64,000 bases of DNA from Ruegeria sp. SCSIO 43209 (lineage in GTDB: Bacteria; Pseudomonadota; Alphaproteobacteria; Rhodobacterales; Rhodobacteraceae): NCBI RefSeq assembly GCF_019904295.1, contig NZ_CP065359.1, positions 335,001-399,000 of the forward strand, given 5' to 3'. The notes under the pieces were generated by a model. The model ran no database searches and was not told the origin of the DNA. It worked only from the letters and a program-made list of their open reading frames with translations. The translations under genes were made by a program, and so were the position numbers. This document shows, in pieces, positions 23,809 through 55,475 of this stretch; position 1 is the stretch's first letter, and each line of letters begins with the position of its first letter.

Positions 23809-24285
23809 TCAGGCGCGATAGAAAAGATATCGATCGGGCGCGATGGTCTCGGGGCCTTCAATCTGCGCAAAACCCGTCAACGGTTGCCCTGAAATCAACA
23901 ACCCACCGGGTCGCATGACCTGTTTGATCAAAGGGCTGAGGCGCGCCGCTTCGGCAACATCTTCTGACTTGATCCCGCGGCCGAAATCGTAGTGCGCCAG
24001 CGCGATTGTTTGGCCTGCGTCCGCCAGTTTACGCAACATCGGCTCGGCCTCACCCTGCAGGAAATCCTGTGCCGGTGGCGTGCTGTCGGGATGACACTGC
24101 AAGACGCGATCCATCACCCATATACGCCGAGAGGGCAGGATCTCACGCAGATGATCATAGGTACGTCCGTTACCTAGCCCCAGGTCCAGAACGTCCCCTT
24201 CCATGGTGCCGATCTGTGCGGCGGCCCAGTTCAGCCCATCGCGTTGCGCCGTCAAGCGGCGCAGCATGGAATCCAGTCGGCTCAT
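23809..24285 (-). CDS. Small class I SAM-dependent methyltransferase
   Basis: 158 residues. The SAM-binding motif is VLDLGLGNGRTYDHL near residue 34; a family-specific HPDSTPP follows near residue 64, and a C-terminal YLFYRA strand ends the protein. It resembles the Methyltransf_17-type proteins. A second member of the same family lies about 16 kb away on the other strand in this window. It is the last gene of the glycosyltransferase operon, 18 bases after the deacetylase-like gene, with an AAGGAGAG ribosome-binding site. The substrate is unknown; methylation of a sugar or glycolipid would fit the neighbours. Confidence 0.75.
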   Translation of the reverse strand: MSRLDSMLRRLTAQRDGLNWAAAQIGTMEGDVLDLGLGNGRTYDHLREILPSRRIWVMDRVLQCHPDSTPPAQDFLQGEAEPMLRKLADAGQTIALAHYDFGRGIKSEDVAEAARLSPLIKQVMRPGGLLISGQPLTGFAQIEGPETIAPDRYLFYRA

Positions 24286-24303
24286 TCGGGCTCTCCTTGC
24301 GGT

Positions 24304-25056
24304 TTAGTTGCGTGGTGCGGTCCAGGGTGTGCCCGGTCCATCAAGCAGCCTGTGCAACAGATCCTGTGTAAACGTCCAGATGTCCTGATCATGGACCAGA
24401 TGATGCGTCAACACCCCAAATGCTTCGGCATTGTCTGCGCGACCGGTGCGTCGGTCATGCAGCAGCTCAACTGTCTGTGCGATCAGTCTGTCAGGGTCGA
24501 TTAAACCGCGCGTCCCGCGCCAGTCGATTGGATCGAGATGTGTGTTTATCTGCGCGAGGCCGGGCGCCGCGAGCGGTATCTTCCGGGGGGTCGCCGTCGA
24601 CAGTATCCGATAGCCCAGCCCGTGAAGCTGCATGGCGACTTTGGAGTCGATCCGATTCCACGGGGGCACAAACATCGGACGCAAGTTGTCACCGAACAAA
24701 CCTCGCAGCCGGGACAATCCAGCCTCGGCATCTGCAACTACCGCTTCAAGGGGCCGGTGCAGGCGAAATTCGGCTTTCTTCTCGTCTGCAGGCGCGTGGT
24801 TCTGATGCGCCCAGCCATGCACAACCGGGATCAAAACAGACTGATCTGACACATACTCTGCAAGTACCGTCTGCGCCTCACGCGGGATTACCGCCAGATG
24901 GACTGGCAGGCCGAGCTCGTCTGACATGGCCGATAGCTTTTCTATCTGTGGTGTCACTGTAACTGCATCGTCATCACGCCACCACAAGGGCAGGGTCAAT
25001 CCTGCATCCTGCCAGCGCCGCAACTCTGACTGCAAGGGGCGCCAATCAGACCTCAT
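24304..25056 (-). CDS. Polysaccharide-deacetylase-like protein
   Basis: 250 residues. Motifs resemble the NodB-type deacetylase fold: WWRDDDA near residue 25 (metal/catalytic Asp), HGWAHQNHA near 80 (metal histidines), FVPPWNRI near 125 and LTHHLVHD near 217. There is no signal peptide, so it would act in the cytoplasm, unlike most peptidoglycan or chitin deacetylases. It overlaps the upstream glycosyltransferase by four bases (ATGA). A role in deacetylating a sugar in the product of this operon is inferred. Confidence 0.72.
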   Translation of the reverse strand: MRSDWRPLQSELRRWQDAGLTLPLWWRDDDAVTVTPQIEKLSAMSDELGLPVHLAVIPREAQTVLAEYVSDQSVLIPVVHGWAHQNHAPADEKKAEFRLHRPLEAVVADAEAGLSRLRGLFGDNLRPMFVPPWNRIDSKVAMQLHGLGYRILSTATPRKIPLAAPGLAQINTHLDPIDWRGTRGLIDPDRLIAQTVELLHDRRTGRADNAEAFGVLTHHLVHDQDIWTFTQDLLHRLLDGPGTPWTAPRN

Positions 25057-26195
25057 CGGCTGGCCTCGTACAAGCTCACTGCAATATCCACTGACCGGCG
25101 CGCGCCATCAAACCCTTCGGTCATCGGGGGGCGTTCAACACTCGAAATGACATGCTCCAGCGCATTGGCCAGCGAGCCGGCGGTCAGGTCAGAACTGTTA
25201 AGCACCTCGATCCCGTTCAACTGCGAAAGAGATCGCGCGCGCAAAGATTGCTCAACCTCTTTGCCATCATCGAAGGGGATCAGAACCGCCGGGGTACCGC
25301 TTTGCAGCAGGTCCATGGCGGTGTTGTAACCGCACATGCTGACCGAGGCGGCGGCAAGCGGCAGCATTTGGCGAAAATCAGGGCGGACGGTTTCAAGAAG
25401 AACCGATGAACCCTCGGCCATTTGCGAAAGCTCGGCGATCCGCGCATTGGCATCCTGCCCGCCCACCAACAGGCGCCAGCGCCAGTTGGGCATCTTTCGG
25501 GCGGCCTCGATGGCCGCTTGAAAGATCGGCTGGCCGACCGACCCGCCACCCGCGCTGACCAATATCTCGCCCTGGCCTATGCCATCTGGATGGCTTGGCG
25601 CAGCACTTGGGGCGACGAAACCGGTGTAATGAAGGCGCGATGCCAGTTGAGCCGAGACAGGCCAACTGACCTCCAGCTTGGTGATCTTGGGGTCGGAATG
25701 GACCAGAACGCCGTCGTAAAACTCTGCGATAACCTCATCCGTTTGGGTTACCTTTGCGGGCTTCGATGGCGGCGCAAGAATGTCACGGATCGAACCAAGG
25801 ATGACGGGTGGCCGAGGTAGGTCTCGTGCGGCTTTCAACGCAGATTTGAACTCCGCGGCCAAAGAGCGCCGCCCGAACGGATAAAGCTCGGTGATCAGAA
25901 CCTGCGGCCCGAAGCTGCTTACCGCCTGCGTCAGGGCGTTTGTGCGCGCAGCGAAGTAGGCCAAGTCGGCCACAGCGCCATTCTGATCAAGCAGGCGGGT
26001 GAAATCGGTGCCATCAGACCGCAGCGGCGGTAAATTCAGTAATGATAATCCACGTGTGTCAAGCTGAGGCGCAGGCAGGCCACCCGAGACCACAAATACC
26101 TCGTGGTCCAGTTCGGCGAATGCGCGCCCCAATGTGAGGGCCCGGCTAAGGTGTCCGGTCCCTAGCAAATGGGTAACAACGATCATCACCTTCAT
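25053..26195 (-). CDS. MurG/GT28-like glycosyltransferase, copy 2
   Basis: 380 residues with a two-domain GT-B layout. The N-terminal glycine-rich loop reads THLLGTGHLSRALTLGRAF, and the C-terminal nucleotide-sugar domain has ILVSAGGGSVGQP and MCGYNTAMDLLQSGTPAVLIP. There is no signal peptide or membrane helix. It is a clear paralogue of the first gene of the operon (matching blocks GTGHL, ILG-RDIL, TGF/TGY, AGGG, GYNT). The ATG used lies two bases after the phosphatase stop, with GAGG upstream. The sugar donor and acceptor are unknown. Confidence 0.78.
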   Translation of the reverse strand: MKVMIVVTHLLGTGHLSRALTLGRAFAELDHEVFVVSGGLPAPQLDTRGLSLLNLPPLRSDGTDFTRLLDQNGAVADLAYFAARTNALTQAVSSFGPQVLITELYPFGRRSLAAEFKSALKAARDLPRPPVILGSIRDILAPPSKPAKVTQTDEVIAEFYDGVLVHSDPKITKLEVSWPVSAQLASRLHYTGFVAPSAAPSHPDGIGQGEILVSAGGGSVGQPIFQAAIEAARKMPNWRWRLLVGGQDANARIAELSQMAEGSSVLLETVRPDFRQMLPLAAASVSMCGYNTAMDLLQSGTPAVLIPFDDGKEVEQSLRARSLSQLNGIEVLNSSDLTAGSLANALEHVISSVERPPMTEGFDGARRSVDIAVSLYEASR

Positions 26196-26197
26196 GG

Positions 26198-26776
26198 TCA
26201 AGCCTCACGCGCAATCAATCGAACCGGTTCGGGTTCAGGCCGCATTTCGTCCAGGTCTACGATAAACAGTCTGTTGCGCTTGATCTTAAACGGCGCGGGA
26301 CCGGAAAAGTTCCAGCCCCAGGCCTTGGCCAATATTACCCTCATGATTCCGATGTGGCAGACAGCAAGATTGTCTCCCTGCAACTCGGTCAACCATGGAT
26401 TAAGCCTTGCCCATAATTCAGCCGGGCTTTCACCGCCCGGTGGCCGATAATCCCAGCCCCAGTCTTCGATGTGGCGATAACCGCTGTCGGGGATTTCGAT
26501 CAGTTCGGCACCGCGCCGTCCCTCCCAATCGCCCCAATTCATCTCGGTCAGCGCCTGAGATGTTTTGGGCGCTTTATCCGATACCAACTGCGCTGTTTCA
26601 GACGCGCGGCTTAGCGGGCTGGACCAGATTGATGCTGCGTTCCACGGCGATGGCAGGCAATACCCCGCAAGTTCAGCCCGCGCGTCGGCATCCAACGGGA
26701 TGTCGCTGCGCCCCTGAATGCGACCCGCGCGATTCCAATCCGTGTGTCCATGGCGCAGAAGGGCGAGACGGGTCAT
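26198..26776 (-). CDS. Histidine phosphatase family protein
   Basis: 192 residues with the LRHGHTDWN motif at residues 7-15 (phosphorylated His9), the supporting SPLSRASETA block and the second catalytic His in VCHIGIMR. The family includes phosphoglycerate-mutase-like, alpha-ribazole and glucosyl-3-phosphoglycerate phosphatases. Its place among glycosyltransferases, with four-base overlap to the gene before it, suggests removal of a phosphate from a phosphorylated sugar or glycoside intermediate. The substrate cannot be told from sequence. Confidence 0.82.
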   Translation of the reverse strand: MTRLALLRHGHTDWNRAGRIQGRSDIPLDADARAELAGYCLPSPWNAASIWSSPLSRASETAQLVSDKAPKTSQALTEMNWGDWEGRRGAELIEIPDSGYRHIEDWGWDYRPPGGESPAELWARLNPWLTELQGDNLAVCHIGIMRVILAKAWGWNFSGPAPFKIKRNRLFIVDLDEMRPEPEPVRLIAREA

Positions 26777-27849
26777 CGGTTTTTCTCCAACAATGGGCGC
26801 ACAGTGGTCCAGAACCGCTCGGTGGCGGATGGCATCAGATGGCGGTGCGCGACATAGGCGCGGGCGCGATTGCCCTCAGACTGGCTCAGGTCGGGATGGT
26901 CCAGAAACCTCTGTATACGCACGGCCAACCCTTTGGCACCCGATCCGGTATCGGGATGATCGGAAGGTATCAGCACATCACGAACACCGGGGCGATCTTG
27001 TGCTGCGACGGGAACGCCGCAGGCCTGGGCCTCAAGATAGACCATACCATAGGCTTCGTTGACCCCAGGCCAAACGAACAAGGACGCTTGGCTGTACCGG
27101 GCCCGCAACGCGTCCCGATCCAGCTGACCCAGAAACCGGACACGAGGTCCGAACCGCGCCATCAGCGCCTCGACTTCCAATCGGGCCGGGCCATCGCCTA
27201 CCACGTCCAACGCCCAATCCCCTGTCAGATGTTCCAGCGTGTCGGCCAGAATGGCGTACGAGGCCTGCTTGTCCCCCGGCCGCATCATGCCCACGGTCAG
27301 CATCGGCCCATCACGGGTCGAAACAGGGGGTAATTCCGTGATGGGAAGAAACGGAGGCAGCTCGACGAGCGCCTGCGTACCGAACCTTTCCCGTTCTAAC
27401 GTGATCAGATCGTTGGCAGTGTGGTAAAAAATCACCTCCGCAGAATCGCACGCGTCGTGCGCCGCTTGCGCAAAATCAGCCCATGGGCCTGCAAGCCGGC
27501 TGGTGGCGCGGGTACTTTCCAGCTGCACATACGGGATGTCTCTTGCGCGGCTCACGGCCGGGCCGAGCAGGTCGGGGGCCTTGTAGTAGTTGTGATAAGT
27601 CACCCACAGGTTCGTGTCAGAGGGCAGTTCCTCAGCCAGTCGTGCAGCCTCGGTCGTTGCTTTGCGACGTAATTCGTCCTGAAGTGCCCGGTCGCCTGCC
27701 TTGTCGTAAATCCGCAATTGCGAGGCCAGCTCAACAATGTCTCCCTCAGCGCCGAGGGCTTGCCTCAGGTTGCGGGCCATTTCGCGATCACCCGAGGGCT
27801 TGGGACTGTCGGGGGACTTCATCGGTGCATAGAAAGCCACCCGCGCCAT
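26773..27849 (-). CDS. Family 4 glycosyltransferase, copy A
   Basis: 358 residues, GT-B fold. The C-terminal donor site has the EX7E pattern in NEAYGMVYLEAQACGVPV, preceded by LTVGMMRPGDKQ and RVRFLGQLDRDAL. The N-terminal MARVAFYAPMKSPDSPKPSGDR segment shows a loop unlike typical exported-polysaccharide enzymes. The start is the ATG overlapping the previous stop by one base (TGATG). No membrane segment is visible. Retaining mechanism and UDP- or GDP-sugar use are family expectations. Confidence 0.82.
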   Translation of the reverse strand: MARVAFYAPMKSPDSPKPSGDREMARNLRQALGAEGDIVELASQLRIYDKAGDRALQDELRRKATTEAARLAEELPSDTNLWVTYHNYYKAPDLLGPAVSRARDIPYVQLESTRATSRLAGPWADFAQAAHDACDSAEVIFYHTANDLITLERERFGTQALVELPPFLPITELPPVSTRDGPMLTVGMMRPGDKQASYAILADTLEHLTGDWALDVVGDGPARLEVEALMARFGPRVRFLGQLDRDALRARYSQASLFVWPGVNEAYGMVYLEAQACGVPVAAQDRPGVRDVLIPSDHPDTGSGAKGLAVRIQRFLDHPDLSQSEGNRARAYVAHRHLMPSATERFWTTVRPLLEKNR

Positions 27850-29096
27850 CAGGGCTCGTCCGCGCACAAGGCGCTGAGCCGCTCGGACAAGCGACGTATG
27901 CCCGGGTCCATCCGGAAGTCGGCGATCAACCGGTTATACGCGGCCTCAGCCATCTCGGCCGTTCTGGTCGGGTTCCTGGCGAGATCCGCAATAGCCGAGG
28001 CAAGAGAGGTCGGGTCATCTGCTGACAACTGACCGTGAACACCGGAATCAATGAACTCCGGGATGGCTGACACCGGCGTTGACAGGATCGGGAGGCGCTG
28101 GGACGCGGCTTCCATCAAAACATTGGGTAAACCATCGCGGTCACCGTCGGCAGCAATTCTGCTGGGCAGGACAAACAGATCAGAGCGGCGCATCTCGGCA
28201 ATGACTTCCGGTTGATCGCAAGCCCCCATCCACGTGATCTGATCGGAAATCCCTGCGGCATCGGCTTGTGCGCTCAACTCATCGCCCAGATTTCCGCCGC
28301 CGATATGGGTCCAATGCCAATTCAGCGATCTGGGGAGTAGCGCGAAAGCTTGGAGAAGCCGGTCAAAGCCCTTCTTTTCGACAAGACGCCCGACCGACAG
28401 CATGTGAAAGGGTGCATCCTCTGCACGCGAACACTGCTGGGGAGGTGCAGGAAACCGCGACAGGTCCAGCCCATGATAGATCAGTTCTACCCGCGCAGGA
28501 TCATCCGCCAGTTCGCGCAGATGTGCGGCACCAATGGCAGTACAGGTTGCCCCGAAGATGGCGCCGTGAGAGGCCAGTTGCAGCTTTTCCCGCTTTTCCC
28601 AGTCTGGTGAGGTCCAGATATCTTTGGCATGCGCCGAAAAACTCCAGGGCAGGCTGCGCATGATAGACGCATAGCGGGCGACCGAAGACGGAGTGTGCAT
28701 GAAATGCGCATACAGCGCCCGCGTTTGATCGGGCAGCTCAGCGGCCAATACGCAGGCCTGACCAAACCGGCGAATTCGGTTGTGAGTCGGGTCTCGGCGA
28801 AGGTCTTGCCGCCAGACCTGGTAAGCTTGTGCGTATCCGGGCAGACGAGCTGCATTGTCTCGCGCAGTCGCCAGCCGCTCAGGCTCTTCATAAAGGTATT
28901 CCGGCAGGTAATGCACCTGCCCCTTGAAGCGATCGTGCAGAGGATGGCGCTTGGTATCGGTCGGGTGGCGCAACGACCAGATATCGAAGCTGTGCCCTGC
29001 CTCCTGCAAGGCCACCAATTCTTGCGCGATGAACGTCTCGGACAGGCGCGGCCAGCCTTTGACCAGCACCGCCAGCTTGGGGGGTTCGCGCGTCAT
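27849..29096 (-). CDS. Family 4 glycosyltransferase, copy B
   Basis: 415 residues, GT-B fold. The N-terminus has KGWPRLSETFIAQEL, as in colanic-acid WcaL-type transferases. The donor site reads GDRDGLPNVLMEAASQRLP, with Asp replacing the first Glu of the usual EX7E motif. MLSVGRLVEKKGFDRLL is the central linker block. It overlaps its upstream neighbour by four bases and its downstream neighbour by one. It is soluble. The transferred sugar is unknown. Confidence 0.83.
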   Translation of the reverse strand: MTREPPKLAVLVKGWPRLSETFIAQELVALQEAGHSFDIWSLRHPTDTKRHPLHDRFKGQVHYLPEYLYEEPERLATARDNAARLPGYAQAYQVWRQDLRRDPTHNRIRRFGQACVLAAELPDQTRALYAHFMHTPSSVARYASIMRSLPWSFSAHAKDIWTSPDWEKREKLQLASHGAIFGATCTAIGAAHLRELADDPARVELIYHGLDLSRFPAPPQQCSRAEDAPFHMLSVGRLVEKKGFDRLLQAFALLPRSLNWHWTHIGGGNLGDELSAQADAAGISDQITWMGACDQPEVIAEMRRSDLFVLPSRIAADGDRDGLPNVLMEAASQRLPILSTPVSAIPEFIDSGVHGQLSADDPTSLASAIADLARNPTRTAEMAEAAYNRLIADFRMDPGIRRLSERLSALCADEP

Positions 29097-30307
29097 CCGG
29101 TGGCGCGCTCTTGTTCCGCGCCTAGCAGCGCGTTTATGCGATGAGTGACGTAGCTTAGCCCGTCCAACAACCCTGCGCGAATGGCCTGCGAAGGCAGCGG
29201 CTGATGGGGCAAGGCGCGGATCGCGCGGATCATTGCATCCGCCGTCAGACCGTCACGGTTTTCATCCAGCATGCGTACCAGACCCAGATCCTCGGCGCGC
29301 GAGGCACGAATCCATTGCTCCAGCCGCGGCGTCGTGCGCGGAACAATGACGGCGCGTTTGTCGAAGGACAAAACCTCGCAGAAGGTATTGTACCCGCCCA
29401 TGCAGACCACACCGGCAGCGCCCGCGAACAGCGTTTCGATCTGCGATTCAAAGCCAACGGCGGTCACACGGCCATTTAGGGCGGCGACACGGGTTTCAAA
29501 ATCTTCGCGTAGTTCGCCTGACAGGAAGGGCCCATAGACCAGCACAGCGCGGGGTGACAGATCCGGGTCTTTTTCATATGCGGACAGCACCAAATTGACC
29601 ATCGCCTTGCCATCGCCGCCACCACCAGGGGTGATCAGGATATACGGTTGTTCTGGTGGCTCACCAACCGGCCCAAGATCGCGACGTAGATACCCTGTCC
29701 AATGAATGCGCTGTTGCGTCGCCGGGCTGAGGGGAAGGCCTTGTGTAGGATCGTAGACCGATCGCAACCCATATACCCAGATCTCATCATAGAATCGTTC
29801 AGTCGCCGTGATCGCGTCCTTACGCTCCCATTCGGCGGCCAGTACTTCGGGCTCATCCAGAACGTCGCGCAGGCCCAGAACCAATTTGGTTGAGCAGGAG
29901 TTTTCAAGATACTCAAGCGTCGGCAGCAGCTCACCGCGAAAACCGGTAGGCTCTTTGTCGACGATCAGCACATCGGGGTCGAACTGTTCGACAGATGTCT
30001 GGATCAGGCTTGCGCGCAACTCGGTCACATCATCGATGCCCATGCCGATGGTCTGCGAAGCATACGAGCCGTCGGCGCGTTTGGTGACCCCGGGTAGACG
30101 GACATGGTCAACCCGACGCGGAAAAGTAAACCGTCCGGCAATGGGTGAACCGGTCAATATGAGGGCCGAAGCGCGTTGATCGGCTTGTGTTATGGCCGCA
30201 GCCAGCGCGCGTGACCGGCGCAGGTGACCCAGGCCGAACGTGTCGTGACTATATAGCAGGATGCGCGGTGCGCGGCCGTGATTTTCGTTTTTGATCCCTA
30301 GGCTCAT
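29093..30307 (-). CDS. MurG/GT28-like glycosyltransferase, copy 1
   Basis: 404 residues. The N-terminal domain has LLYSHDTFGLGHLRRSRALA, and the C-terminal donor domain has ILITPGGGGDGKAMV, then CMGGYNTFCEVLSFDKRAVIVP. It is a paralogue of copy 2 in the same operon. It is the first gene of the seven-gene set, with GAAGG upstream of its ATG. The 380 bases before it hold the promoter region shared with the divergent MscS channel gene. No membrane segment is visible. Confidence 0.8.
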   Translation of the reverse strand: MSLGIKNENHGRAPRILLYSHDTFGLGHLRRSRALAAAITQADQRASALILTGSPIAGRFTFPRRVDHVRLPGVTKRADGSYASQTIGMGIDDVTELRASLIQTSVEQFDPDVLIVDKEPTGFRGELLPTLEYLENSCSTKLVLGLRDVLDEPEVLAAEWERKDAITATERFYDEIWVYGLRSVYDPTQGLPLSPATQQRIHWTGYLRRDLGPVGEPPEQPYILITPGGGGDGKAMVNLVLSAYEKDPDLSPRAVLVYGPFLSGELREDFETRVAALNGRVTAVGFESQIETLFAGAAGVVCMGGYNTFCEVLSFDKRAVIVPRTTPRLEQWIRASRAEDLGLVRMLDENRDGLTADAMIRAIRALPHQPLPSQAIRAGLLDGLSYVTHRINALLGAEQERATG

Positions 30308-33173: not shown

Positions 33174-34529
33174 TTAAGCGGTAAGTGACGGCCAAGTGGG
33201 CTGCGAAGTTCCCAGTTTGGACGCAGGCAAAGCCCAGTGCATATTTGCGGATCCAACGGTTAGCGCCGGCTTCAATCGATAGCCGGGCCCCCACCCGGAA
33301 GGTTCGAGCGCATCCGCATAATCGACAGGCAGCGACTCGGTAATTTCGTCACCGGGCTCGCTCTTGGCGAGGGTGGCCAGCAATTCGGCGGTGCGCGCCA
33401 GCGAGAGCCGGGCATCCATGACGGCCTGACCGGATGCGGCTTCGGCGAGCGCCGAGAGCAGGGCGGCTGCCATCAAGTAGCCAGTTGCGTGATCCAGTGC
33501 CTGAACAGGCAACGGAGTTGGCTTGTCGACCCCCGCCCAACCCATCCCTGCATGTGCGATTCCGGAACTCATCTGTACAAGGCTGTCAAAACCGCGGCGC
33601 GCTGCCCATGGTCCTTGCCAGCCATAAGCGTCGAGCGTGACTTCAACCCTGTTGGGGGCAAGCTGATCCCGCGTGTTTTTGCCCAGACCGAGTGCGTCCA
33701 AAGCGCCGGGCCGATACCCGTGGACAAATATGTCCGCTTGGGCCAGCAGCTCTTGCAGTTTTAATTTTCCATCGGGTGATTTCAGGTTCAGATAGGCGCA
33801 GTGCTTGCCGAGAGAAATGTCAGGAATGACGCCAGGTTCATCCCAGCCGGGTGGATCGATCCTCAGGACCTCGGCGCCAAAACCCGCAAGTGTTCGTGTC
33901 GAGACTGGCCCGGCCAGAATGCGGGTCAGATCGAGCACACGCAGCCCAGAAAGAGGTCGCGCGGCAGTCGCCTGAGGCCGATCACGTAGTTGAATATTGC
34001 GTGGCCCCTGCCATCCGATCAACGGCTCGCGGGCCAATATGCGTCCTTGCGGATGGTCATGCCACTCAGAGCGGCCGCGCATTGCGGCAGCGACGCCGCC
34101 CTCGGCGACAATCGCGGCTTCCAGTTCAGAGATGCTCCAATCCCGAACTGCGCGCGATACCAGCGCACGGTCCGGCGCGACTTGCAAAACATTAAGGGCG
34201 GCGGCGCGATGACTGGGCAGGTTGGTGTGCAGCCTGATCCACCCATCAGAGGCCTGATAGTCGCCAGCAATCGCGTCCCAAAGGCTGGGCATATCCCACC
34301 CTTCGGGTTTGAAGGAAAAGCCATACCACAAGGAGGCCAGTCGATGATCTACGGCCACCTCCAGAGGTGCAGGCGCCAGGTTCAAGGCTGTCACAAGGCG
34401 CGACAGCTCCTGCCCGACTGCCGCAAAACTGGCCGTCGCCAGCTCCGAAACCGCGAAGGCGCTGGGCCGCGCACCCGCCCCATTGACCCTGTAGGTGTCA
34501 GTTGAGGGGAGGGCGGACAGCAAGCTCAT
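33174..34529 (-). CDS. CaiB/BaiF-type CoA-transferase with permuted layout
   Basis: 451 residues. The normal N-terminal half of a family III CoA-transferase begins only at residue 193 (LSGLRVLDLTRILAGPVS), followed by DIFVHGYRPGALDALGLG and the catalytic Asp315 in GFDSLVQMSSG. The first ~190 residues (SLWDAIAGDYQASDGWIRL, AAIVAEGGVAAAMRGRSEW) resemble the usual C-terminal half. This looks like a circular permutation. It overlaps the ABC permease gene by four bases and ends that operon, suggesting the imported solute is activated to a CoA ester. The substrate is unknown. Confidence 0.75.
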   Translation of the reverse strand: MSLLSALPSTDTYRVNGAGARPSAFAVSELATASFAAVGQELSRLVTALNLAPAPLEVAVDHRLASLWYGFSFKPEGWDMPSLWDAIAGDYQASDGWIRLHTNLPSHRAAALNVLQVAPDRALVSRAVRDWSISELEAAIVAEGGVAAAMRGRSEWHDHPQGRILAREPLIGWQGPRNIQLRDRPQATAARPLSGLRVLDLTRILAGPVSTRTLAGFGAEVLRIDPPGWDEPGVIPDISLGKHCAYLNLKSPDGKLKLQELLAQADIFVHGYRPGALDALGLGKNTRDQLAPNRVEVTLDAYGWQGPWAARRGFDSLVQMSSGIAHAGMGWAGVDKPTPLPVQALDHATGYLMAAALLSALAEAASGQAVMDARLSLARTAELLATLAKSEPGDEITESLPVDYADALEPSGWGPGYRLKPALTVGSANMHWALPASKLGTSQPTWPSLTA

Positions 34530-35680
34530 TGCTGATAGGGATCAAGGCTGTCGCGCAGCCCATCGCCAAGGAAGTTGAAGGCCAGCACCACGACGATGAT
34601 CGGTAGCATCGGGATCGCGGTCCATGGATAGATTTCGATTGAGGCGAGGTTCTGCGCGTCGTTCAACATCACGCCCCAACTGACCGCCGGGGCGCGCAGC
34701 CCAAGGCCAAGGAAGCTGAGGGCGGTTTCGCCCAAGATCATCGCAGGGATTGATAGCGTGGCCGAGGCAATCAGATGCGACATGAAATTGGGTAGCAGGT
34801 GCTTTCGGATCACACGACCGGAACTTGCGCCCATCATCTCGGCCGCACGTACGTATTCCTCTTCCCTGAGAGACAGGAATTTTGCGCGGACAGATCGGGC
34901 AAGGCCTGGCCAATCGAGAATACCGAGGATGATCGAGATGATGAAGAATACCGCGACCGGGCTCCAATTTGATGGCACCGCGGCGGATAAGGCCAGCCAG
35001 AGGGGAAGTTCCGGCAGCGAGCGCAGGATTTCGATCACACGGTTGATGGTCCAGTCGATGCGCCCTCCGAAATACCCGGCCATTGACCCGAACAGGATGC
35101 CGAGGAAGAAGGATACCGAAATGCCGATCAGGCCCACTGTCAGCGACAGTTGCGCGCCATATAGGATGCGGCTGAATACATCGCGGCCCAGACGGTCCGA
35201 GCCCCACAGAAACAGCGTGGCCCCTTCGGGTGCGCAAAACAGGTGCGTATCGGATTTTATCAGGCCTGCGAGTTTGTATTCTGACCCTTCGCAGAAGAAC
35301 CGGATTGGGCGCGGGTCTTCCGTGTCAGCGACGAATTTCCACTGGAAAGTTTCAAGGTCCGCCTCTGCAACTATTGGATAAACGTAGGGGCCGATGAACT
35401 TCCCCTCATGAAACCAGTTGACCGACTGGGGTGGAGCATACAGGTGCTCTCCGTTCCGATCATTGGGGCCGTAGGGGGCAATAAAGCCCGCAAAAGGCAG
35501 CATCAAGTAGCAGAGCAGTAAGAAGAGGCCAGAAATCAGACCCAGCTTGTGGGTCCTGAACTTGCGCCAGACCAGCACCCAATTAGGGGCATCGAGATCT
35601 GCGCGCTCAAGCTGCTGAATAGAGGCCTGCGGGTCAAATGGTGCGTCGTCGACATAGCGACCATCGGGTTTATCGGTCAT
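34526..35680 (-). CDS. ABC importer permease, YejE/OppC type
   Basis: 384 residues. One N-terminal helix (about 48-72) is followed by a large periplasmic insertion of roughly 90 residues, then five helices and the permease signature EEYVRAAEMMGASSGRVIRKHLLPN. The insertion resembles the E. coli YejE type rather than plain OppC. It forms a heterodimer channel with the gene upstream. It overlaps both neighbours by four bases. Confidence 0.88.
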   Translation of the reverse strand: MTDKPDGRYVDDAPFDPQASIQQLERADLDAPNWVLVWRKFRTHKLGLISGLFLLLCYLMLPFAGFIAPYGPNDRNGEHLYAPPQSVNWFHEGKFIGPYVYPIVAEADLETFQWKFVADTEDPRPIRFFCEGSEYKLAGLIKSDTHLFCAPEGATLFLWGSDRLGRDVFSRILYGAQLSLTVGLIGISVSFFLGILFGSMAGYFGGRIDWTINRVIEILRSLPELPLWLALSAAVPSNWSPVAVFFIISIILGILDWPGLARSVRAKFLSLREEEYVRAAEMMGASSGRVIRKHLLPNFMSHLIASATLSIPAMILGETALSFLGLGLRAPAVSWGVMLNDAQNLASIEIYPWTAIPMLPIIVVVLAFNFLGDGLRDSLDPYQQ

Positions 35681-36705
35681 GCTTCGCGCCCCTCGTAACG
35701 AATGCGCGGATCAAGCATGACCAGCAGGATATCGGAAATCATGGTGCCGATCAGCGTCAGCAGAGCCACGAACATAAGAATGAAGGCCGACAGGAACTGG
35801 TCCTGCGTTTTCAAGGCAGTCAGCAGGGTCGGGCCGATTGTTTGCAGACCCAGAACCACCGAGACCAAAACCGACCCGGAAACCATCGAGGGCAGCAGGT
35901 TTCCAATGTCGGCGACAAACGGGTTGAAGGCCACGCGCAATGGGTATTTCGTCAGCATCCGCGATGGGGACATGCCCTTGGCGATTGCTGTTTCGACATA
36001 AGGTTTCCCTAGTTCATCCAGCATATTGGCGCGCAGGCGCTGCATCATGGCCGAAGCACCCGAGGTTCCGATGACGAAGGTCGGAACGATCAGGTGGACA
36101 AGGATGGATTTCAACTTGTCCCAACTCATCGGTTGTCCCTCAAAGGAAGGGTCCATTAGTCCGCCGATGGGCAGGTTGAAATAGCGATGGCCATAGTAGA
36201 ACAGGATCAGCGCCAACAGGAAGTTCGGGGTCGCAAGACCCAGATAGCCTACAAAGGCCGAGGTATAGTCGATCCACGTCCGTGATCTGGCCGCAGCGAT
36301 GACCCCCAATGGTAGAGCAACGGCATAGACGAATAGAATGGCAGCCAGATTGACCACAACCGTCAACCACAGCGTATCGCCCACGATCTCGCGCACGGGG
36401 CGGTCAAATTCGAAGGACCAGCCATAATTGCCCTGTAACAAGCCTTCGAACCCATGCGGTCCGGGCCAAAAGCCCATCCAGATCAGGTACTGCTCGGGCA
36501 ACGACCGGTCCAATGAGTATTCCTTGCGCAGAAACTCGGCCTTGGCGACACCGGCGGACTGTCCCGAAGCCTGCAGTTCGGCGATCTGGTTGCTGAGATA
36601 ATCGCCGGGGGGCAGGTTGATGATCACGAAAATCAGAACCGACACCACCAGCAATGTCAGCAGCATCGTGAAAAAGCGATACACCGCGTAGCGCAGCATG
36701 ACCAT
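35677..36705 (-). CDS. ABC importer permease, YejB/OppB type
   Basis: 342 residues with six hydrophobic helices. Typical features are the N-terminal YRFFTMLLTLLVVSVLIFV helix, a periplasmic loop with YSLDRSLPEQYLIWMGFW, and the cytoplasmic loop MLDELGKPYVETAIAKGMS, which contacts the ATPase. An AGGAG ribosome-binding site is present, 15 bases after the binding-protein gene. It is the partner of the YejE-type permease. Confidence 0.9.
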   Translation of the reverse strand: MVMLRYAVYRFFTMLLTLLVVSVLIFVIINLPPGDYLSNQIAELQASGQSAGVAKAEFLRKEYSLDRSLPEQYLIWMGFWPGPHGFEGLLQGNYGWSFEFDRPVREIVGDTLWLTVVVNLAAILFVYAVALPLGVIAAARSRTWIDYTSAFVGYLGLATPNFLLALILFYYGHRYFNLPIGGLMDPSFEGQPMSWDKLKSILVHLIVPTFVIGTSGASAMMQRLRANMLDELGKPYVETAIAKGMSPSRMLTKYPLRVAFNPFVADIGNLLPSMVSGSVLVSVVLGLQTIGPTLLTALKTQDQFLSAFILMFVALLTLIGTMISDILLVMLDPRIRYEGREA

Positions 36706-36720
36706 TTAGCTGCTCCTGAA

Positions 36721-38634
36721 TTAGTCGGCGAAGAAGAACTCGTCGGGACGGTGAATGCCGAAATGTGCGCCGGGTTCCCATGCCCACATGGCCTGCTCAG
36801 GCACATTGCGCAGGCGGTTCGACACGACAATAGGCTGCGGTGCGCCGTTCAGGATGCCGATCGCATAAAGCTGGTCAGCGTGAATTTTCAGCATCTCAGA
36901 CCAGACTGCGCCGCGTTCTTCATCCGTGGAGGCGATTTCCCAATCGTGGGCAAGCTTCATGAGAAGTTCGGCCTCGGGCATGTCTGGTGGTTCGCCCGAC
37001 CCTCCATTTGTCTGATAGTATTGGCCCCATTTAGGCCATGCCAGAAAGACCTGATCGGTCGGGGCGAGATAGGCCGGCGATGTGTGGCTTTGCGGAATGC
37101 CGTCATCCCAGCCGAACCAGACCGACGCCATTGTATTGCCCGAGAAGACCCGGTTGCGCAGGATGTCTCGATCCAATGGTCGCATGACCAGTTCGACTCC
37201 GATCTCACGCCAGGTATCCGTGACGATCTGCAGGGCATTTTCAACCTCTTGCCGCTCACCTGCGGTTTCGATGATCAGCTCCATCGGACGCCCGTCGGGC
37301 AACAGTCGGATACCATCTTTGTCACGCTCGGTCAGCCCAGCCTCATCAAGCAGAGCATTCGCCTTGTCGACGTCATACTGTGCCCAAGCCTGCGCATTCG
37401 CTTCGTCGTAGAAGGGCGATGCGGGCAGAACCGACATCGCGCCGGGTTGGGCCAGCTTGAAATAGAGCGCCTGATTGATCGTCTTGCGATCAATGGCGAG
37501 CGACAGTGCCCTGCGTACACGTACATCGCGCAGAACCTCGCGCCACGCATCGTCAGTGTAGTTCAAATTGGGATAAATCGCGATCTGCGACGCGACGCCT
37601 GTTTTCCACAGAAGCGTCTTGTATCCACCTTCAGCCTCGCCCTTTTTCAAGATCGAGGCATCGCGGAATGCCAATCCGCGACCTTGCAAGTCGGTTTCAC
37701 CCGCATTTGCTTTGGCCGCGACCAAACCCGGTGCGACGATTTCCATTTCGACTACGTCGATATAGGGCAGCTGAACCCCATTTGAATCCACCCGATGGTA
37801 ATAAGGGTTACGGACAAAGTTGTGCCGGATTTTCTTGCCCGAACTTGCGTTGAGCCATGGCTGCAACGTCGGCAGTTCATGATTGTCGTACTTATATAGA
37901 TTGTCCAACTTGTTATGCAGCGCCGCCCAGCTTTTTACCCGCGCATCTTCGACCTTGAATGCCAGTTCTTCGGGGTCTGCAAACTTCTCGTGATACTGCT
38001 TAAGGAACTCAGACGGTCGATAGATAAAGGGCGGCCGCGCCTGAGCAAGTGATTGCAGGAAATTCGGGTTGGGGTCATCCCATTCGAATACAACTGTTGT
38101 TTCGTCGGGGAAGGTGACGGTGGGTGTTTTGCCTTCAACCAGCAGGAAATCTGGTGGGCCTGAAGGGCTGAGCAATTCGTTGTTGGCCACATCCTCCCAC
38201 CAATACCGGAAGTCTTCGGATGTGAACGCGGATCCGTTTGACCATTTGTGGCCGGGTCGCAGGTTCAAAGTAAATTTGCGATTGTCTTCATTTTCGAAAG
38301 AAGCCAGCAAATCCGGGACGATGTTGTAATCCTGATCGAAGCCCACAAGCCTTGCGTAGCCATAGACCACCATTTGCCGAATATCTTTGGACCGGGTGAC
38401 CATCGTGCGCAGTGTACCGCCGGGTACGCCGAATTCGCGACCTTTGGCGGCTAAGTCCACGATCAGCGGTTCTTGCGGAATACGTTCAGCAACCGGTGGC
38501 AGGTCGCCGCTTTCAACCTCGGTTTGCCAGAACGCGTTTTCCTGAAGATTAGACGGAATTTCTGCCACAGCGGGCAGCATTCCTGTGATGGCCAGCGACG
38601 CGGCCAAAATCAATCGGTGAGTGGTCTTAAACAT
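36721..38634 (-). CDS. ABC importer solute-binding protein, family 5
   Basis: 637 residues with a signal peptide ([19 protein letters not shown]..., cleavage near AVA). The SBP_bac_5 landmarks are present: a WSNGSAFTSEDFRYWWE-like block near residue 135, VRRALSLAIDRKTIN near 375 and a C-terminal W-rich part. It is longer than typical OppA/DppA (about 540), like YejA-type proteins. It would bind peptides or another extended solute in the periplasm. Its start overlaps the end of the ATPase gene by eight bases. Confidence 0.9.
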   Translation of the reverse strand: MFKTTHRLILAASLAITGMLPAVAEIPSNLQENAFWQTEVESGDLPPVAERIPQEPLIVDLAAKGREFGVPGGTLRTMVTRSKDIRQMVVYGYARLVGFDQDYNIVPDLLASFENEDNRKFTLNLRPGHKWSNGSAFTSEDFRYWWEDVANNELLSPSGPPDFLLVEGKTPTVTFPDETTVVFEWDDPNPNFLQSLAQARPPFIYRPSEFLKQYHEKFADPEELAFKVEDARVKSWAALHNKLDNLYKYDNHELPTLQPWLNASSGKKIRHNFVRNPYYHRVDSNGVQLPYIDVVEMEIVAPGLVAAKANAGETDLQGRGLAFRDASILKKGEAEGGYKTLLWKTGVASQIAIYPNLNYTDDAWREVLRDVRVRRALSLAIDRKTINQALYFKLAQPGAMSVLPASPFYDEANAQAWAQYDVDKANALLDEAGLTERDKDGIRLLPDGRPMELIIETAGERQEVENALQIVTDTWREIGVELVMRPLDRDILRNRVFSGNTMASVWFGWDDGIPQSHTSPAYLAPTDQVFLAWPKWGQYYQTNGGSGEPPDMPEAELLMKLAHDWEIASTDEERGAVWSEMLKIHADQLYAIGILNGAPQPIVVSNRLRNVPEQAMWAWEPGAHFGIHRPDEFFFAD

Positions 38635-40399
38635 GGCAACGTACCTTATGGCCGGGCTCCAACTCTACCAAAGAAGGTATCACGGAGTCGGAAAATCGAA
38701 AGGCGTCATCCCAACTGTCGGGAGAACCGGCACCCAACGCAACCAGTTTCAGATCAATCGGGCGATTGATATCTGGTTCCGGCTGGGCGGCAATCAGTGC
38801 CTTGGTATAGGGATGACGTGGATTGTAGAACAGGGTTTCGGGTGGGGCTTGTTCCACCACAAGACCCCGGCGCATGACGGCGACTTCGTCGGCAATGCGC
38901 GCGACGACGGCCAGATCATGTGAGATGAACAGGTAAGACAGGTTCAGACTGTCCTGCAGTTCTTCGAGCAGGGTCAAAATTTGCTCTTGAACGGATACAT
39001 CCAGCGCCGAGGTTGGCTCGTCACAAACAATCAGCGCCGGGTCCAACATCATCGCGCGGGCGATAGATAGGCGCTGTCGTTGTCCACCAGAAAACGCATG
39101 CGGATAGCGTTTGAGCATATCGGCATTCAGCCCGACCCGCTGCAACATCGCGGCCGCTTTGTCGCGCTGCTCTGCCACAGTGCCGAGGCGGTGTATCTCC
39201 AACGGCTCGGTCATGGCATCCTGAATGCGCATACGGGGGCTAAGAGAGCTATAGGGATCCTGAAACACCATTTGCGCCTTGCGCTGAAACGCGGTGCGTT
39301 CGGTCCGTGTCATACTGTGAACCGTTATCGGTTCGGAATCCCTTGTTGTTCTGAACAGAACTTCGCCGCCCGGGTCGGGCAGTTCAGCGCCCAGAGCGAT
39401 TCTGGCGGCGGTTGTTTTGCCAGACCCGCTTTCGCCAACGATTGCAAGCGTCTTGCCGCGCGCCAGCTTCATATCTACGCCCCGGCAGGCATGGATCAGT
39501 TTGTCGGCTTTCCAACCTTTGCTCGATCGCATCGTGTAGGTCTTTGAGACCCCGGTCATCTGCAGAATTAGGTCCTCGTCGGGCATCGGTATGCCGACGG
39601 CATCCTGATCGGGTATCTCAGGCGCTGCGTCGAACAGCTGCTGCGTATAGGGGTGCGCCGGATCGTTCAGAATTGGTGCTGCCGGGCCAGCTTCCATCAC
39701 GCGGCCTTTGTGCATGACGACCACCCGCTCGGCCATGTTAGCAACTACACCCAGGTCATGGGTGACAAGGATCAGCGCCATACCGGTCTCGCGCTGCAGC
39801 TCTTTGATCAGCCCAAGAACCTGCGCTTGGGTGGTAACATCCAGCGCTGTTGTCGGCTCGTCCGCGATGAGCAATTCAGGCTTGGACACCATGGCCATGG
39901 CAATCATGGCACGCTGGCGCATGCCGCCGGACAGCTCGAACGGATAGCTGTCGTAGGCGCGGGCAGGGTCGGGGAAACCAACCCTCTCAAACTGGGTCAG
40001 AACTTCTTTGCGGGCCTGTGCATCGGATGCGCCGCGATGCAACCAAAGAACTTCGCTGACCTGATTTCCGATTTTGTGAAGCGGTGACAGAGATCGCATC
40101 GGTTCCTGAAAAATCATAGAAACCCGATTGCCGCGAATACCACGCATCTGTCTTTCACTCAGTTCGATCAGATTAGCGGTGCCTTTGGAATCGTTCAGCG
40201 TGATCGTTCCGCTACGGATCTTGGCGGTACGCGGCAGAATACGCAGTGCAGCGCGACAGGAAATCGTTTTGCCCGAACCGGATTCTCCAACCAATGCAAG
40301 TGTCTGCCCGGGTTCGACCTCGAAGCTGACATCTTGGACAACGGATGGACCCGTGCCAAAGCCGATGCTGAGATCCCGAACGGACAACAACGCACTCAT
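38627..40399 (-). CDS. ABC importer ATPase with two fused nucleotide-binding domains
   Basis: 590 residues, equal to OppD and OppF (or YejF) in one chain. Each half has a full set of motifs: Walker A GESGSGKT near residue 38 and again near 325, signatures [12 protein letters not shown] and [12 protein letters not shown], and Walker B LLIADEP and LIVCDEP. Both sites should hydrolyse ATP. It is the first gene of the operon and energises the two permeases. Confidence 0.93.
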
Positions 40400-52433: not shown

Positions 52434-55400
52434 TTGAGCGGCGGATCGTTAGTAGGGGCGGGTTCAATAGAACGATCGATCTTTCAGTTCATCTGGAAAT
52501 ACTCGAAGCGCGACCAGTTGATTTTGCTGGCCGTGACGTCGACCTTGTTTCCTTTGCTTTACCTGACGTTGGAGCTGCCCAAGCGCATCATCAATGACGC
52601 AATCGGCGCGACAAGTCAGATTGTCGATGTCTGGGGTTATAGCCTGACGCAGACCACTTTTCTGATGATCCTGTGCTTTGCCTTTCTGGCTGCGGTGCTG
52701 GCGCACGGGCTGATGAAGATGCGTATCAACACCATGAAGGGTGTTCTGAGCGAGCGTATGCTGCGTCGCTTTCGCTATCAGTTGATCAACCGCGCGCTTC
52801 GCTTCCCACAACCATATTTTGAGCGGGTCAGTCAGGGCGAAATGGTCTCGATGATAACCGCTGAAAGCGAACCGATGGGTGGGCTGATGGGGGATGCGAT
52901 CAGTCAGCCCGTGCTGCAGGCCGGACAAATGATCACGATCCTGTCCTTTCTGTTCCTCCAAAGCGTTTGGTTCGGACTGGCCGCGGTGGCGTTGATCCCG
53001 CTGCAGGCCTGGTTGATCCCGCGATTGCAACGCCAGATCAATCTTCTGAACAAGAAGCGCATTCAAGAGGTCCGCGTTTTGGCTGCCCAGATCGGCGAGA
53101 ACGCTGCCGGTGCTTCGACCCTGCGCGCCAATGGCGGTTGGCGTTATCGGCGGGCGATGATCTCGGATCAGCTGGGGCGCCTGTTCGCCATCCGCTTTGA
53201 GATCTATCAGAAGAAGTTCTTTATGAAGTTCATCAACAACTTCATATCGCAGCTGACGCCATTCATGTTCTACCTTGTCGGTGGCCTGCTGGTGTTGCAG
53301 GGGTCTGTTTCGCTGGGTGCTCTGGTGGCTGCGCTGGCGGCTTACAAAGACTTGAGCTCACCCTGGAAAGAACTGCTGACCTATTATAATCAAACGCAGG
53401 ACATGTCGCTGCGATGGGATGTTGTGATTGATCGTTTCGCACCGGATGGAATGATTGATGAGGCCCTGTTTGACGGAGAGCCAGCGGATCGTCCACATCT
53501 GAATGGCGATATCGTACTGAATCAAGTCTCGGTTCGTGATATCGACGGCAATCAGGTTTTGGATGATCTGGACCTGACGTTCCCAGCAGGTAAAACTGTC
53601 GGCATTTCGGCCACCAGCGAGGAAGATCGCCATGCGCTGACCGAGTTGCTGACCCGCGAGATTCTGCCAACCTCTGGCCGTATTGAAATCGGCGGCATCA
53701 ATATGGCTGGCCTGCATCAAAGCGTTGTTGCCCAACGAATAGGTCTAGCAACCTCGCGCCCCATAATGTTTCAGGGCACGTTGGGTGAAAATGTGATGAT
53801 GCCGATGCGGTCACATCCATTGTCCAAGTCCACCGAGGATCCGGATTTCCCCGAGACGCTGAGGGCAGGCAATAGTGCTGATCCATTCAACGCCGAATGG
53901 CTTGACCCCGGAATGGCGGGTTTTGACGATACGGCGCGGCTGCGCGATTGGTGGCTGAAACTGATCGATGGCATGGGCTCGGGCGCGGCGTTGTTTCAGC
54001 GCGGTGCCGAGCAGGTGTTTGATGCGAATGAGCGCCCGGAACTGGCAGCAAAGCTGGTCGAATTGCGCCCTCGGGTTCAGAAGGCGGTGCGCGAGGCCGG
54101 GCTTGATCAGCAGGCGCTGATTTTCGATCGCTGCGCGTATAACCCTGCGCTACCCGTTGCTGAGAACCTGTTGTTTGCCACCCCCTGCGTTCCGGTGACG
54201 CGACAATTGCTGGCACAGCAGACCGTGTTTCTGGGCCAGTTGCGCGAGTTGGGGTTGGATGAAACCCTGATCAGCCTGACACGCGACGTAATTGAGATGC
54301 TGCGCCAGATATTTGGGCTTGATGGAACAGATCATCCTTTGTTTCGCAAGCTGGGGCTTGAGGCCCAGACCTACGAGGCCGCGGTTGAATTGGTCGAGCA
54401 AACCCGGAAGGAAGGCGCAAACGGGCTGGATGACGAACAATTGGCTAGCTTGCTTTCGGTGCCATTTGTGATCTCGGCCGAGCAGATTGGCCCGGCGTTT
54501 TCGGATGAGCTGAAGAACCGCATTCTTGAGCTTCGCCACAGCCATTCGGCCAAATTGCTGGAACCCTTGCACGATGTATTCGTCCCGTTGGATGAAGATG
54601 CCTTTGCACCCGGTTTGACGGTCATGGAAAACGCACTGTTTGGCAAGGTCAGCCAGATCGGCGGTGCGCGGACCGACGAGGCGCGCAAACTGATCGTCGA
54701 TGTTCTGGCCGAGAACGGGGCGCGACCGATGGTGGTGGAACTGATCTATGATGTTCCGGTCTCGATTGGCGGCCAGAACTTGCCTGCGGTATTTGCCGAA
54801 CCACTGGCCTTTACCCGCGCTGCGATCAAAAAGCCGGATATTCTGATCCTGGAAACCGCGCTTGCCAGCTATGATATGGAGACACAGGTCGCAGTTTATA
54901 AAAATCTGCGTGAATTGCTGCCCGAAACTACTGTAATCTATCTAAATGATGCGTTCGAAAATCCAGATGTTTTCGACATGTATGTTGAAATCCGTCAGGG
55001 CCGGGTCGTGACGGGTGAAGGCCCAACCGACGTCGACGGCGACGGTGCGGCGTCTGCCGATCTGGTACGCAAATTGCGTGCGCTTGAGCAGACCCCGTTG
55101 TTCTCTGGGCTCGACCGTCGCCAGCTTCGACTGCTGGCCTTTGGTGCGCGCTGGTTCGAAGCGAAACCTGGCCAGGTGGTGTTTCTGAAGGATGATCAGC
55201 CAACCGATGGCGCCTATGTCATCCTTGAGGGCGAGGCAGGATTGTACCTGCCGCGTTCGGGCGAGGCCGATCAACTGATCACTACGGTTGGTGCGGGCGC
55301 GTTGGTGGGAGAGCTGGGGTTGATCCGAAAAGAGCCTCGGGCGTTGAGCATGGTGGCTGAAACGGAACTGTCCTGCCTACGGATCGGTGAAGAGGAATTT

Positions 55401-55475
55401 CTGGCGGTCGTCGAGAACGATGCAGCCACAGCCTTTAAACTGTTGCAGGTCATCGCGGGGTATGTCTCGAACTGA
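52434..55475 (+). CDS. ABC-exporter-like protein with degenerate ATPase and cNMP-binding domain
   Basis: 1013 residues. An exporter-type membrane domain (about 25-330) is followed by a nucleotide-binding domain that is split and altered. At 387-399 Walker A is GKTVGISATSEED with no GxxGxGKS. The Q-loop region FQGTLGENV is kept near 446. An insertion of roughly 320 residues (455-775) follows, then a signature-like VSIGGQNLP (776-784), Walker B ILILETALASYD (803-814) and an H-loop position changed to Asn (VIYLNDAF). A cyclic-nucleotide-binding domain fills 885-1010. It is probably unable to hydrolyse ATP normally. The start (TTG) lacks a ribosome-binding site and is uncertain. Confidence 0.85.
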   Translation: MSGGSLVGAGSIERSIFQFIWKYSKRDQLILLAVTSTLFPLLYLTLELPKRIINDAIGATSQIVDVWGYSLTQTTFLMILCFAFLAAVLAHGLMKMRINTMKGVLSERMLRRFRYQLINRALRFPQPYFERVSQGEMVSMITAESEPMGGLMGDAISQPVLQAGQMITILSFLFLQSVWFGLAAVALIPLQAWLIPRLQRQINLLNKKRIQEVRVLAAQIGENAAGASTLRANGGWRYRRAMISDQLGRLFAIRFEIYQKKFFMKFINNFISQLTPFMFYLVGGLLVLQGSVSLGALVAALAAYKDLSSPWKELLTYYNQTQDMSLRWDVVIDRFAPDGMIDEALFDGEPADRPHLNGDIVLNQVSVRDIDGNQVLDDLDLTFPAGKTVGISATSEEDRHALTELLTREILPTSGRIEIGGINMAGLHQSVVAQRIGLATSRPIMFQGTLGENVMMPMRSHPLSKSTEDPDFPETLRAGNSADPFNAEWLDPGMAGFDDTARLRDWWLKLIDGMGSGAALFQRGAEQVFDANERPELAAKLVELRPRVQKAVREAGLDQQALIFDRCAYNPALPVAENLLFATPCVPVTRQLLAQQTVFLGQLRELGLDETLISLTRDVIEMLRQIFGLDGTDHPLFRKLGLEAQTYEAAVELVEQTRKEGANGLDDEQLASLLSVPFVISAEQIGPAFSDELKNRILELRHSHSAKLLEPLHDVFVPLDEDAFAPGLTVMENALFGKVSQIGGARTDEARKLIVDVLAENGARPMVVELIYDVPVSIGGQNLPAVFAEPLAFTRAAIKKPDILILETALASYDMETQVAVYKNLRELLPETTVIYLNDAFENPDVFDMYVEIRQGRVVTGEGPTDVDGDGAASADLVRKLRALEQTPLFSGLDRRQLRLLAFGARWFEAKPGQVVFLKDDQPTDGAYVILEGEAGLYLPRSGEADQLITTVGAGALVGELGLIRKEPRALSMVAETELSCLRIGEEEFLAVVENDAATAFKLLQVIAGYVSN

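Follow-up and report, generated by a model that had tools for sequence, protein, structure and literature searches.

The window analysed here is a stretch of 64,000 nucleotides from Ruegeria sp. SCSIO 43209 (contig NZ_CP065359.1, positions 335,001 to 399,000). At positions 52434–55475 (+) it carries an uninterrupted frame of 1013 codons, whose product joins the transmembrane domain (TMD) of an ATP-binding cassette (ABC) exporter to a degenerate nucleotide-binding domain (NBD) and a C-terminal cyclic-nucleotide-binding (cNMP) domain. The features of this gene, with residues numbered in the called frame, are the following:

52467..55475, +, pseudo-ABC gene when counted from the likely ATA start (1002 codons and a stop); the open reading frame (ORF) as called by the tool starts at TTG 52434
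52467..52469, +, probable AUA initiation codon, preceded by AGGGGCGGG at 52454–52462
52467..53453, +, TMD of the ABC-exporter type (residues 12–340; PF00664), the best-conserved domain among 108 relatives
53610..53633, +, degenerate Walker A position ATSEEDRH (residues 393–400, by alignment)
53769..54743, +, span holding the insertion (residues 446–770)
54099..54569, +, segment B of the insertion, in part a further copy of segment C (residues 556–712; hhalign)
54561..54833, +, segment C, which runs into the signature helix (residues 710–800)
54780..54794, +, degenerate signature position LPAVF (residues 783–787, family alignment)
54837..54857, +, degenerate Walker B DILILET (alignment)
54948..54950, +, H-loop position, Asp replacing His (Asp839, alignment)
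55161..55421, +, cyclic-nucleotide-binding domain (residues 910–996; PF00027, E 1e-15)
55305..55346, +, phosphate-binding cassette VGELGLIRKEPRAL with conserved Gly, Glu/Asp and Arg

An earlier sequence-only reading had described the product as an ABC-exporter-like protein with a cNMP domain at its end, and both parts of this description are borne out. Pfam assigns PF00664 (ABC_membrane) to residues 52–301 with an E value of 2.1e-16, as expected for an exporter TMD, and the C-terminal residues match PF00027 (cNMP_binding) as listed above. The ABC ATPase domain PF00005 gives no Pfam match in the window protein at E 1; it is above the cut-off in four of five ABC-like relatives tested. Residues 50–459 align to the MsbA and bacteriocin-exporter models of NCBIfam (E 3e-33 to 3e-29) and one NCBIfam ABC ATPase model matches residues 788–860, all of these matches being far under the curated cut-offs. 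The best solved exporters align to residues 101–455 and weakly also to residues 772–859. From these split alignments it follows that an NBD is present in the window protein and that it is interrupted and degenerate.

The motifs of the ATP site are lost more completely than had been read from the sequence alone. In place of the Walker A consensus GxxGxGK[ST] the protein has ATSEEDRH, and the Walker B motif reads LILET, in which the Glu position is altered in addition to the Asp position already reported as lost. Thus, neither the Walker A consensus nor the Walker B Asp-Glu pair is found. The reported loss of the H-loop His was correct, but the residue aligning to it is Asp839, and the Asn proposed as its replacement is the neighbouring Asn838. 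Two elements thought to be kept are not: the Gln position of the Q-loop is occupied by Ser441, and the GGQ at residues 779–781 precedes the signature, whose register starts four residues on and reads LPAVF instead of LSGGQ (often LSxxQ or LTxxQ in relatives). When the nine canonical exporters of the same genome were scored by regular expression, Walker A was kept in all nine and the LSxGQ signature in eight; the tenth PF00664 match of the genome, L279, has a frame of only 311 codons and was left unscored.

The top matches of the window protein are found in Ruegeria and other Rhodobacteraceae. An even sampling of the class Alphaproteobacteria (385 genomes) gave a relative in 129 of them (E <= 1e-30), and a sample of the phylum gave one in 32 of 398 genomes (E <= 1e-60), 31 of them within the class. 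The motifs were read in 115 distinct full-length proteins, obtained from 132 ORFs by merging identical cores; they include the window protein and the second copy of the same genome, and a few others are second copies or members of the phylum sample. This set covers part of the 129 genomes, as fragmentary contigs and over a dozen weaker matches were left out. The Walker A Lys together with the Ser/Thr is present in 4 of the 115 proteins and the Walker B Asp in 14, and both Walker A residues occur jointly with the Walker B Asp and Glu in only two (L193 and L213). All six ATP-site elements are found in none, the maximum being four, and 30 proteins have zero. The replacements follow a pattern. Outside the Rhodobacteraceae 88 of 108 proteins have an acidic residue, Asp or Glu, at the Walker A Ser/Thr position (109 of 119 in a second set), and the Walker B Asp is replaced by Asn in 56 of the 108 and by Ser in 26. 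In the Rhodobacteraceae Arg takes the Walker A Lys position in 30 of 30 rows (6/7 in the 115-protein set), the remaining ATP-site motifs are lost as well, and the second family copy of the window genome is also degenerate. Hence the search for orthologues with intact Walker motifs has shown the losses to be family-wide, and we could show that the ATP sites of this exporter-fold family degenerated in a consistent way across Alphaproteobacteria.

The long intact frame, from which it had been argued that the protein is maintained, is likewise confirmed. Neither the window gene nor any of 15 orthologues has an interrupted frame over the compared range, and the ratio of nonsynonymous to synonymous substitution rates (dN/dS) of the whole protein against these orthologues is 0.03–0.15, with synonymous sites near or at saturation, indicating purifying selection. 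For 14 of the 15 orthologues, either the TMD or the cNMP part has the lowest dN. Within the 108 relatives the mean pairwise identity, taken from 800 random pairs, amounts to 53% for the TMD, 38% for the Walker A half, 45% for the insertion and 44% for the C-terminal NBD part. In the nine canonical exporters of the genome the TMD is 17% and the NBD 42% identical; these are paralogues, so that the comparison is unequal. Conservation in the family is inverted, the TMD being conserved over the NBD.

The insertion that had been said to split the NBD is also real. The distance from F446 to G780 is 334 residues in the window protein and 317–417 in the 115 proteins, and the span of the window protein exceeds the length in MsbA-type exporters by ∼285 residues. 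Comparison of segments B and C with hhalign gave a probability of 97.9 and an E value of 5.7e-13 over 63 columns, and therefore the NBD has received one or more additional copies of its own post-Q-loop segment. The NBD is thus enlarged by an extra post-Q-loop copy, the copies being B and C. A third copy, segment A (residues 430–557), is likely but weak, with profile comparisons of E 8e-4 against C and 1e-3 against B; control comparisons with unrelated slices gave E 0.07–0.54, with the exception of C against D (0.0022), which have six residues in common. A known solved fold for the insertion was looked for by sequence among the Protein Data Bank chains, none of which matched (best E 0.56).

The nucleotide pocket of the cNMP part presents a different picture. 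Most relatives encode this part separately, in a gene of ∼150 codons. When 101 split proteins were screened by motif, 88 had a cNMP-like ORF directly downstream, while several of the other 13 lie in short fetched stretches, and the gaps between the ABC and the cNMP gene are under 100 bases in 85 of 89 measured cases. The cNMP part is fused in 14 of the 115 proteins, and in the tree a single starred set of 15 is made up of the seven fused Rhodobacteraceae, the seven other fused rows and one split protein. A single clade, to which the Rhodobacteraceae belong, has been shown to carry the cNMP protein of the neighbouring gene as a C-terminal fusion. Readthrough of a stop codon joining both parts was considered and rejected: the in-frame stops fit separate gene ends and the cNMP genes start at many spacings. 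In the separate cNMP proteins the Gly and Arg of the phosphate-binding cassette are kept in 91 of 91 and the Glu in 87 of 91. In the fused proteins Gly and Arg are kept in 14 of 14, with Glu in ten and Asp in four, as recounted free of the cassette-containing pattern that had pre-selected an earlier fused set. These counts show that the cNMP pocket is largely conserved, unlike the ATP pocket. The window protein has both the PF00027 domain and the cassette and is predicted to bind cAMP or cGMP; its genome gives 22 nucleotide-cyclase-like matches.

The start of the gene probably has to be revised. The called frame is conserved only from residue 12, the ATA codon 52467–52469, onwards, and in the alignment this column holds Met in 14 and Val in one of 15 distant rows. 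Among 88 Rhodobacteraceae rows (three unreadable, L072, L095 and L164; L004 and L162 represent one place) the 85 readable ones have ATA in 49, ATC in 18 and ATG in 18 cases; 15 of the 18 ATG rows, many being second copies, are only ∼50–54% identical to the window protein. For 38 of the 67 ATA/ATC rows, the stretch from the upstream in-frame stop to the start position has no ATG, GTG or TTG. The window is outside these 38 rows because a TTG sits 11 codons upstream. ATA accounts for 105 of 3640 (2.9%) other Ile codons of the same frames and never exceeds 3.1% in 15 other conserved Ile columns; the binomial p for its enrichment at the start position is 2e-60, uncorrected for kinship. Initiation probably takes place at ATA 52467 and not at TTG 52434, and judged from codon usage and alignment a conserved AUA/AUC start codon appears well supported.

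The genes that accompany the family give a hint at its function. Two clusters of the window are concerned:

23809..30307, −, glycan cluster tied to the pseudo-ABC gene by co-occurrence (Methyltransf_17, WWRDDD protein, GT28-like, histidine phosphatase, GT4, GT4, GT28-like; GT, glycosyltransferase)
34526..40399, −, Opp/Yej-like peptide ABC importer (first permease by Pfam, the others by reading)

In the 385 genomes the GT28-like gene is present in 124 of the 129 with the ABC-like gene, and conversely 124 of 128 genomes with the GT28-like gene have the ABC-like one; the phylum sample of 398 gives 27/32 and 27/31. In the window's own family the ABC-like gene occurs in four genomes and a strong GT28-like match in the very same four, at least 19 relatives miss both genes, and G686 has only a distant GT28-like match of 35%. 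The gene is back to back with the glycan run in seven of 12 neighbourhoods inspected. This run varies and consists in relatives of GT28-like, GT4, GT4, histidine phosphatase, GT28-like and WWRDDD protein genes followed by an Opp/Dpp-like importer (domain identities in L148 by Pfam), an importer similar to that of the window flanking the cluster. Of 39 neighbourhoods, each 20 kb long, 23 contain GT4-type glycosyltransferase ORFs. On the Rhizobium etli plasmid p42e the order is importer, three glycosyltransferases, ABC protein and cNMP protein; Sinorhizobium meliloti pSymB has a similar arrangement, with gaps in the gene table. For a 52%-identical second copy on a Ruegeria conchae plasmid, the annotated neighbours show no glycan hint. 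Because of the co-occurrence with sugar-polymer genes the window protein probably acts in a glycan pathway, and from this and the gene neighbourhoods we infer that the family cooperates with the conserved glycosyltransferases to build or move a cell-surface glycan.

Of the five genomes that have the ABC-like gene without the GT28-like one, four (G283, G506, G513 and G629) carry a divergent form with a barely recognisable membrane part. Divergent relatives with NBD and insertion are:

L194 3472–6021
L195 2634–5585
L197 4297–6894
L198 4700–7297

All four have a membrane part that can scarcely be recognised and keep few ATP motifs or none, and their four genomes are without a GT28-like gene.

The nearest relatives of the TMD found outside the family have 345–497 residues and no NBD. 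Those of interest here are:

L181 4542–5780, L183 4000–5196, L264 7773–9266, L266 6776–7975 and L267 6773–8077, NBD-less TMD proteins within copper-resistance clusters
L192 1197–2231, TMD-only version of the family beside glycosyltransferase genes, in a genome of 1.6 Mb

In BLAST, L181–L184 and L192 show 43–48% identity. Of five NBD-less proteins tested with PF00664, L181, L186 and L190 are above the cut-off, L183 is just below it and L182 has no match, so that for some of these proteins the TMD assignment rests on BLAST. L181, L183 and L184 adjoin genes read as copper oxidase, copper-binding protein, plastocyanin or metal P-type ATPase, and a copper oxidase neighbour was not recognised for the related L182. 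Neighbours of these kinds are annotated on plasmids of Phaeobacter inhibens, Thalassospira lucentensis and Pseudosulfitobacter, where the NBD-less proteins carry an ABC transporter annotation, one even that of an ATP-binding protein. A TMD tree was made by a quick method with 80 of 137 rows, among them 50 of 107 family rows (some chosen, others random), omitting L191 and L200, which are TMD pieces at contig ends, and F_L165, whose start was wrong. In this tree 55 NBD-bearing rows form one starred group, seven copper-type rows (L182 included) form another, adjacent one, and the divergent NBD-bearing L196 and L198 fall outside the main groups. The deep order of the tree is unsure because the canonical exporters are far off on long branches. 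L185–L190 form a further set of exporter-like proteins that consist of the TMD only; they are more distant (27–33% identity) and lie in assorted contexts.

Taken together, we suggest that the window protein may be a cNMP-regulated exporter-fold protein of a glycan pathway that is independent of ATP hydrolysis, and we hold this reading with evenly balanced confidence. The family would most likely run no ATP hydrolysis cycle, and a dimer might move or hold a lipid-linked glycan intermediate as its putative substrate. If the C-terminal domain binds cAMP or cGMP, this would shift the enlarged dead NBD and hence the membrane part, and expression would probably be kept low through the AUA start codon. 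The sequence-only reading had thought of a nucleotide-gated sensor or channel rather than a pump. Its first half, a role other than that of an ATP-driven pump, fits with the NBD-less paralogues, the largely kept cNMP cassette and the conservation of the TMD over the NBD. The other half, channel or sensor, lacks direct support, as no ion-channel Pfam family matches and the glycosyltransferase co-occurrence suggests a glycan pathway.

Several observations weigh against the suggested mechanism. Outside the Rhodobacteraceae the Walker A Lys is retained in 66 of 108 proteins, the Walker B Glu in 64 and the signature Gln in 98, and therefore ATP binding or slow hydrolysis is possible there. The near-canonical L213, with four of the six elements, is nested within the family tree, so that the losses are perhaps neither ancestral nor final everywhere. 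An A-loop aromatic residue is found at position 368–370 in 5 and at 367 in 30 of the 115 proteins, which is an ambiguous picture. Four fused proteins, ∼50% identical to the window protein and of the second-copy type, have the cassette Asp in place of Glu. The Fisher p of 5e-89 for the co-occurrence of the ABC-like and GT28-like genes ignores shared ancestry. In addition, the glycan run is missing from five of the 12 inspected neighbourhoods, and in the window the orthologous glycan cluster is ∼22 kb away from the pseudo-ABC gene.

A rival reading is an exporter of the glycan pathway that is still driven by ATP and hydrolyses it with atypical residues, such as an acidic one at the Walker A Mg site. 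The consistent acidic replacement resembles adaptation rather than drift, in one set of relatives the Walker B Glu is present in 107 of 119 and the Walker A Lys in 89 of 119, and L193 and L213 retain Walker A and B jointly. Yet the Lys, the catalytic Glu, the signature and the H-loop His are missing, too, from the window protein and its relatives in the Rhodobacteraceae, and TMD-only kin exist, which makes such a pump unlikely. The near-perfect co-occurrence with the GT28-like gene and the degenerate motor could also be expected of a membrane scaffold that gathers glycosyltransferases under cNMP control and transports nothing; as the entire exporter TMD is the most conserved part and would be needless for a simple anchor, we regard a scaffold as distinctly unlikely. 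A nucleotide-gated channel or sensor derived from an exporter would agree with the largely kept cassette and the degenerate motor, and CFTR is a precedent for an ABC-exporter fold working as a channel. But ion-channel Pfam families give zero matches at E 1, the pore domain of cyclic-nucleotide-gated (CNG) channels included, a DNA-binding or channel Pfam domain was not found in the window protein, and the glycan linkage would be left unexplained, so that we consider this alternative improbable indeed. Pairing with a canonical ABC half-transporter that provides one working ATP site has a very slim chance: heterodimers are the usual setting of degenerate sites (consulted parts of PMC7756269), but an exporter half beside the gene was not recognised in 12 neighbourhoods, where ORF starts were read rather than searched with Pfam, the genome's other family member is degenerate, and the canonical exporters are very distant in the tree. 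A gene in decay would show every ATPase motif altered, as is seen here, but the open frames and low dN/dS in the window and the 15 orthologues and the relatives kept class-wide make this next to inconceivable, and together with the family-wide losses they rule out a recent or local decay.

In a wider and more tentative view, which we consider possible but somewhat doubtful, the family would be part of a superfamily of exporter TMDs, spread through the Alphaproteobacteria, that abandoned ATP, with a cNMP-controlled glycan branch having a dead NBD, an NBD-less copper branch and, in the Rhodobacteraceae, synthesis throttled by AUA/AUC initiation. ABC exporters are the textbook ATP-driven pump. 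This family, maintained throughout a bacterial class with degenerate ATP sites, and its NBD-less sister proteins allow a direct test of whether an exporter fold can function in the absence of ATP hydrolysis, and of what a cyclic nucleotide might do instead. The annotations listed for this large family are no more specific than ABC transporter or cNMP-binding protein, and the present analysis gives it a likely pathway; in the open-access literature on this family or on degenerate exporters we recognised no paper describing it.

Two proteins in the region of the glycan cluster may be mentioned. The conserved WWRDDD protein of 250 residues (24304–25056) has no Pfam match at E 0.001, and an MscS-like mechanosensitive channel of 809 residues (30657–33086) lies between the glycan cluster and the importer. 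A role in anti-phage defence was also considered and rejected, as PADLOC gives nothing for the window protein; in a relative, a match to mad3 of the Mads system (1.6e-16 over the C-terminal NBD part) and one to mad8 (8e-5) were taken as general ABC likeness.

With CRP, the regulatory subunit of PKA and CNG channels, which are cNMP-domain proteins, the window protein has in common the PF00027 domain with its G-E...R cassette; unlike in these, the domain is here fused to, or encoded beside, an ABC-exporter fold. The type IV (formerly type I) exporters MsbA, Sav1866 and BmrA share the TMD match and the alignment, but the window protein differs from them in its degenerate ATP sites, the ∼285 extra NBD residues and the cNMP domain, and scores far below the curated cut-offs of this class. 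Substitutions in Walker and signature motifs are shared with TM287/288, TmrAB and the ABCC family. These exporters keep one canonical site per dimer, and in the consulted parts of the same source an exporter with both sites degenerate was not seen (PMC7756269). Unlike in TM287/288, TmrAB and ABCC, both gene copies found in the window genome are degenerate.

The start codon adds one more case of conserved AUA/AUC initiation. As far as the consulted parts of PMC13009471 go, non-canonical start codons are described for infC, ccpN (a repressor gene) and cvfC1 (coding for a 61-residue protein), and for ccpN and cvfC1 initiation was measured to be lowered. As in the window gene, the AUA/AUC initiation position is kept between species in infC, pcnB, ccpN and cvfC1, of which pcnB appears in these parts only via a cited title. 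The window gene differs in that it codes for a large membrane protein, whereas infC encodes IF3, ccpN a repressor and cvfC1 the small protein mentioned above.

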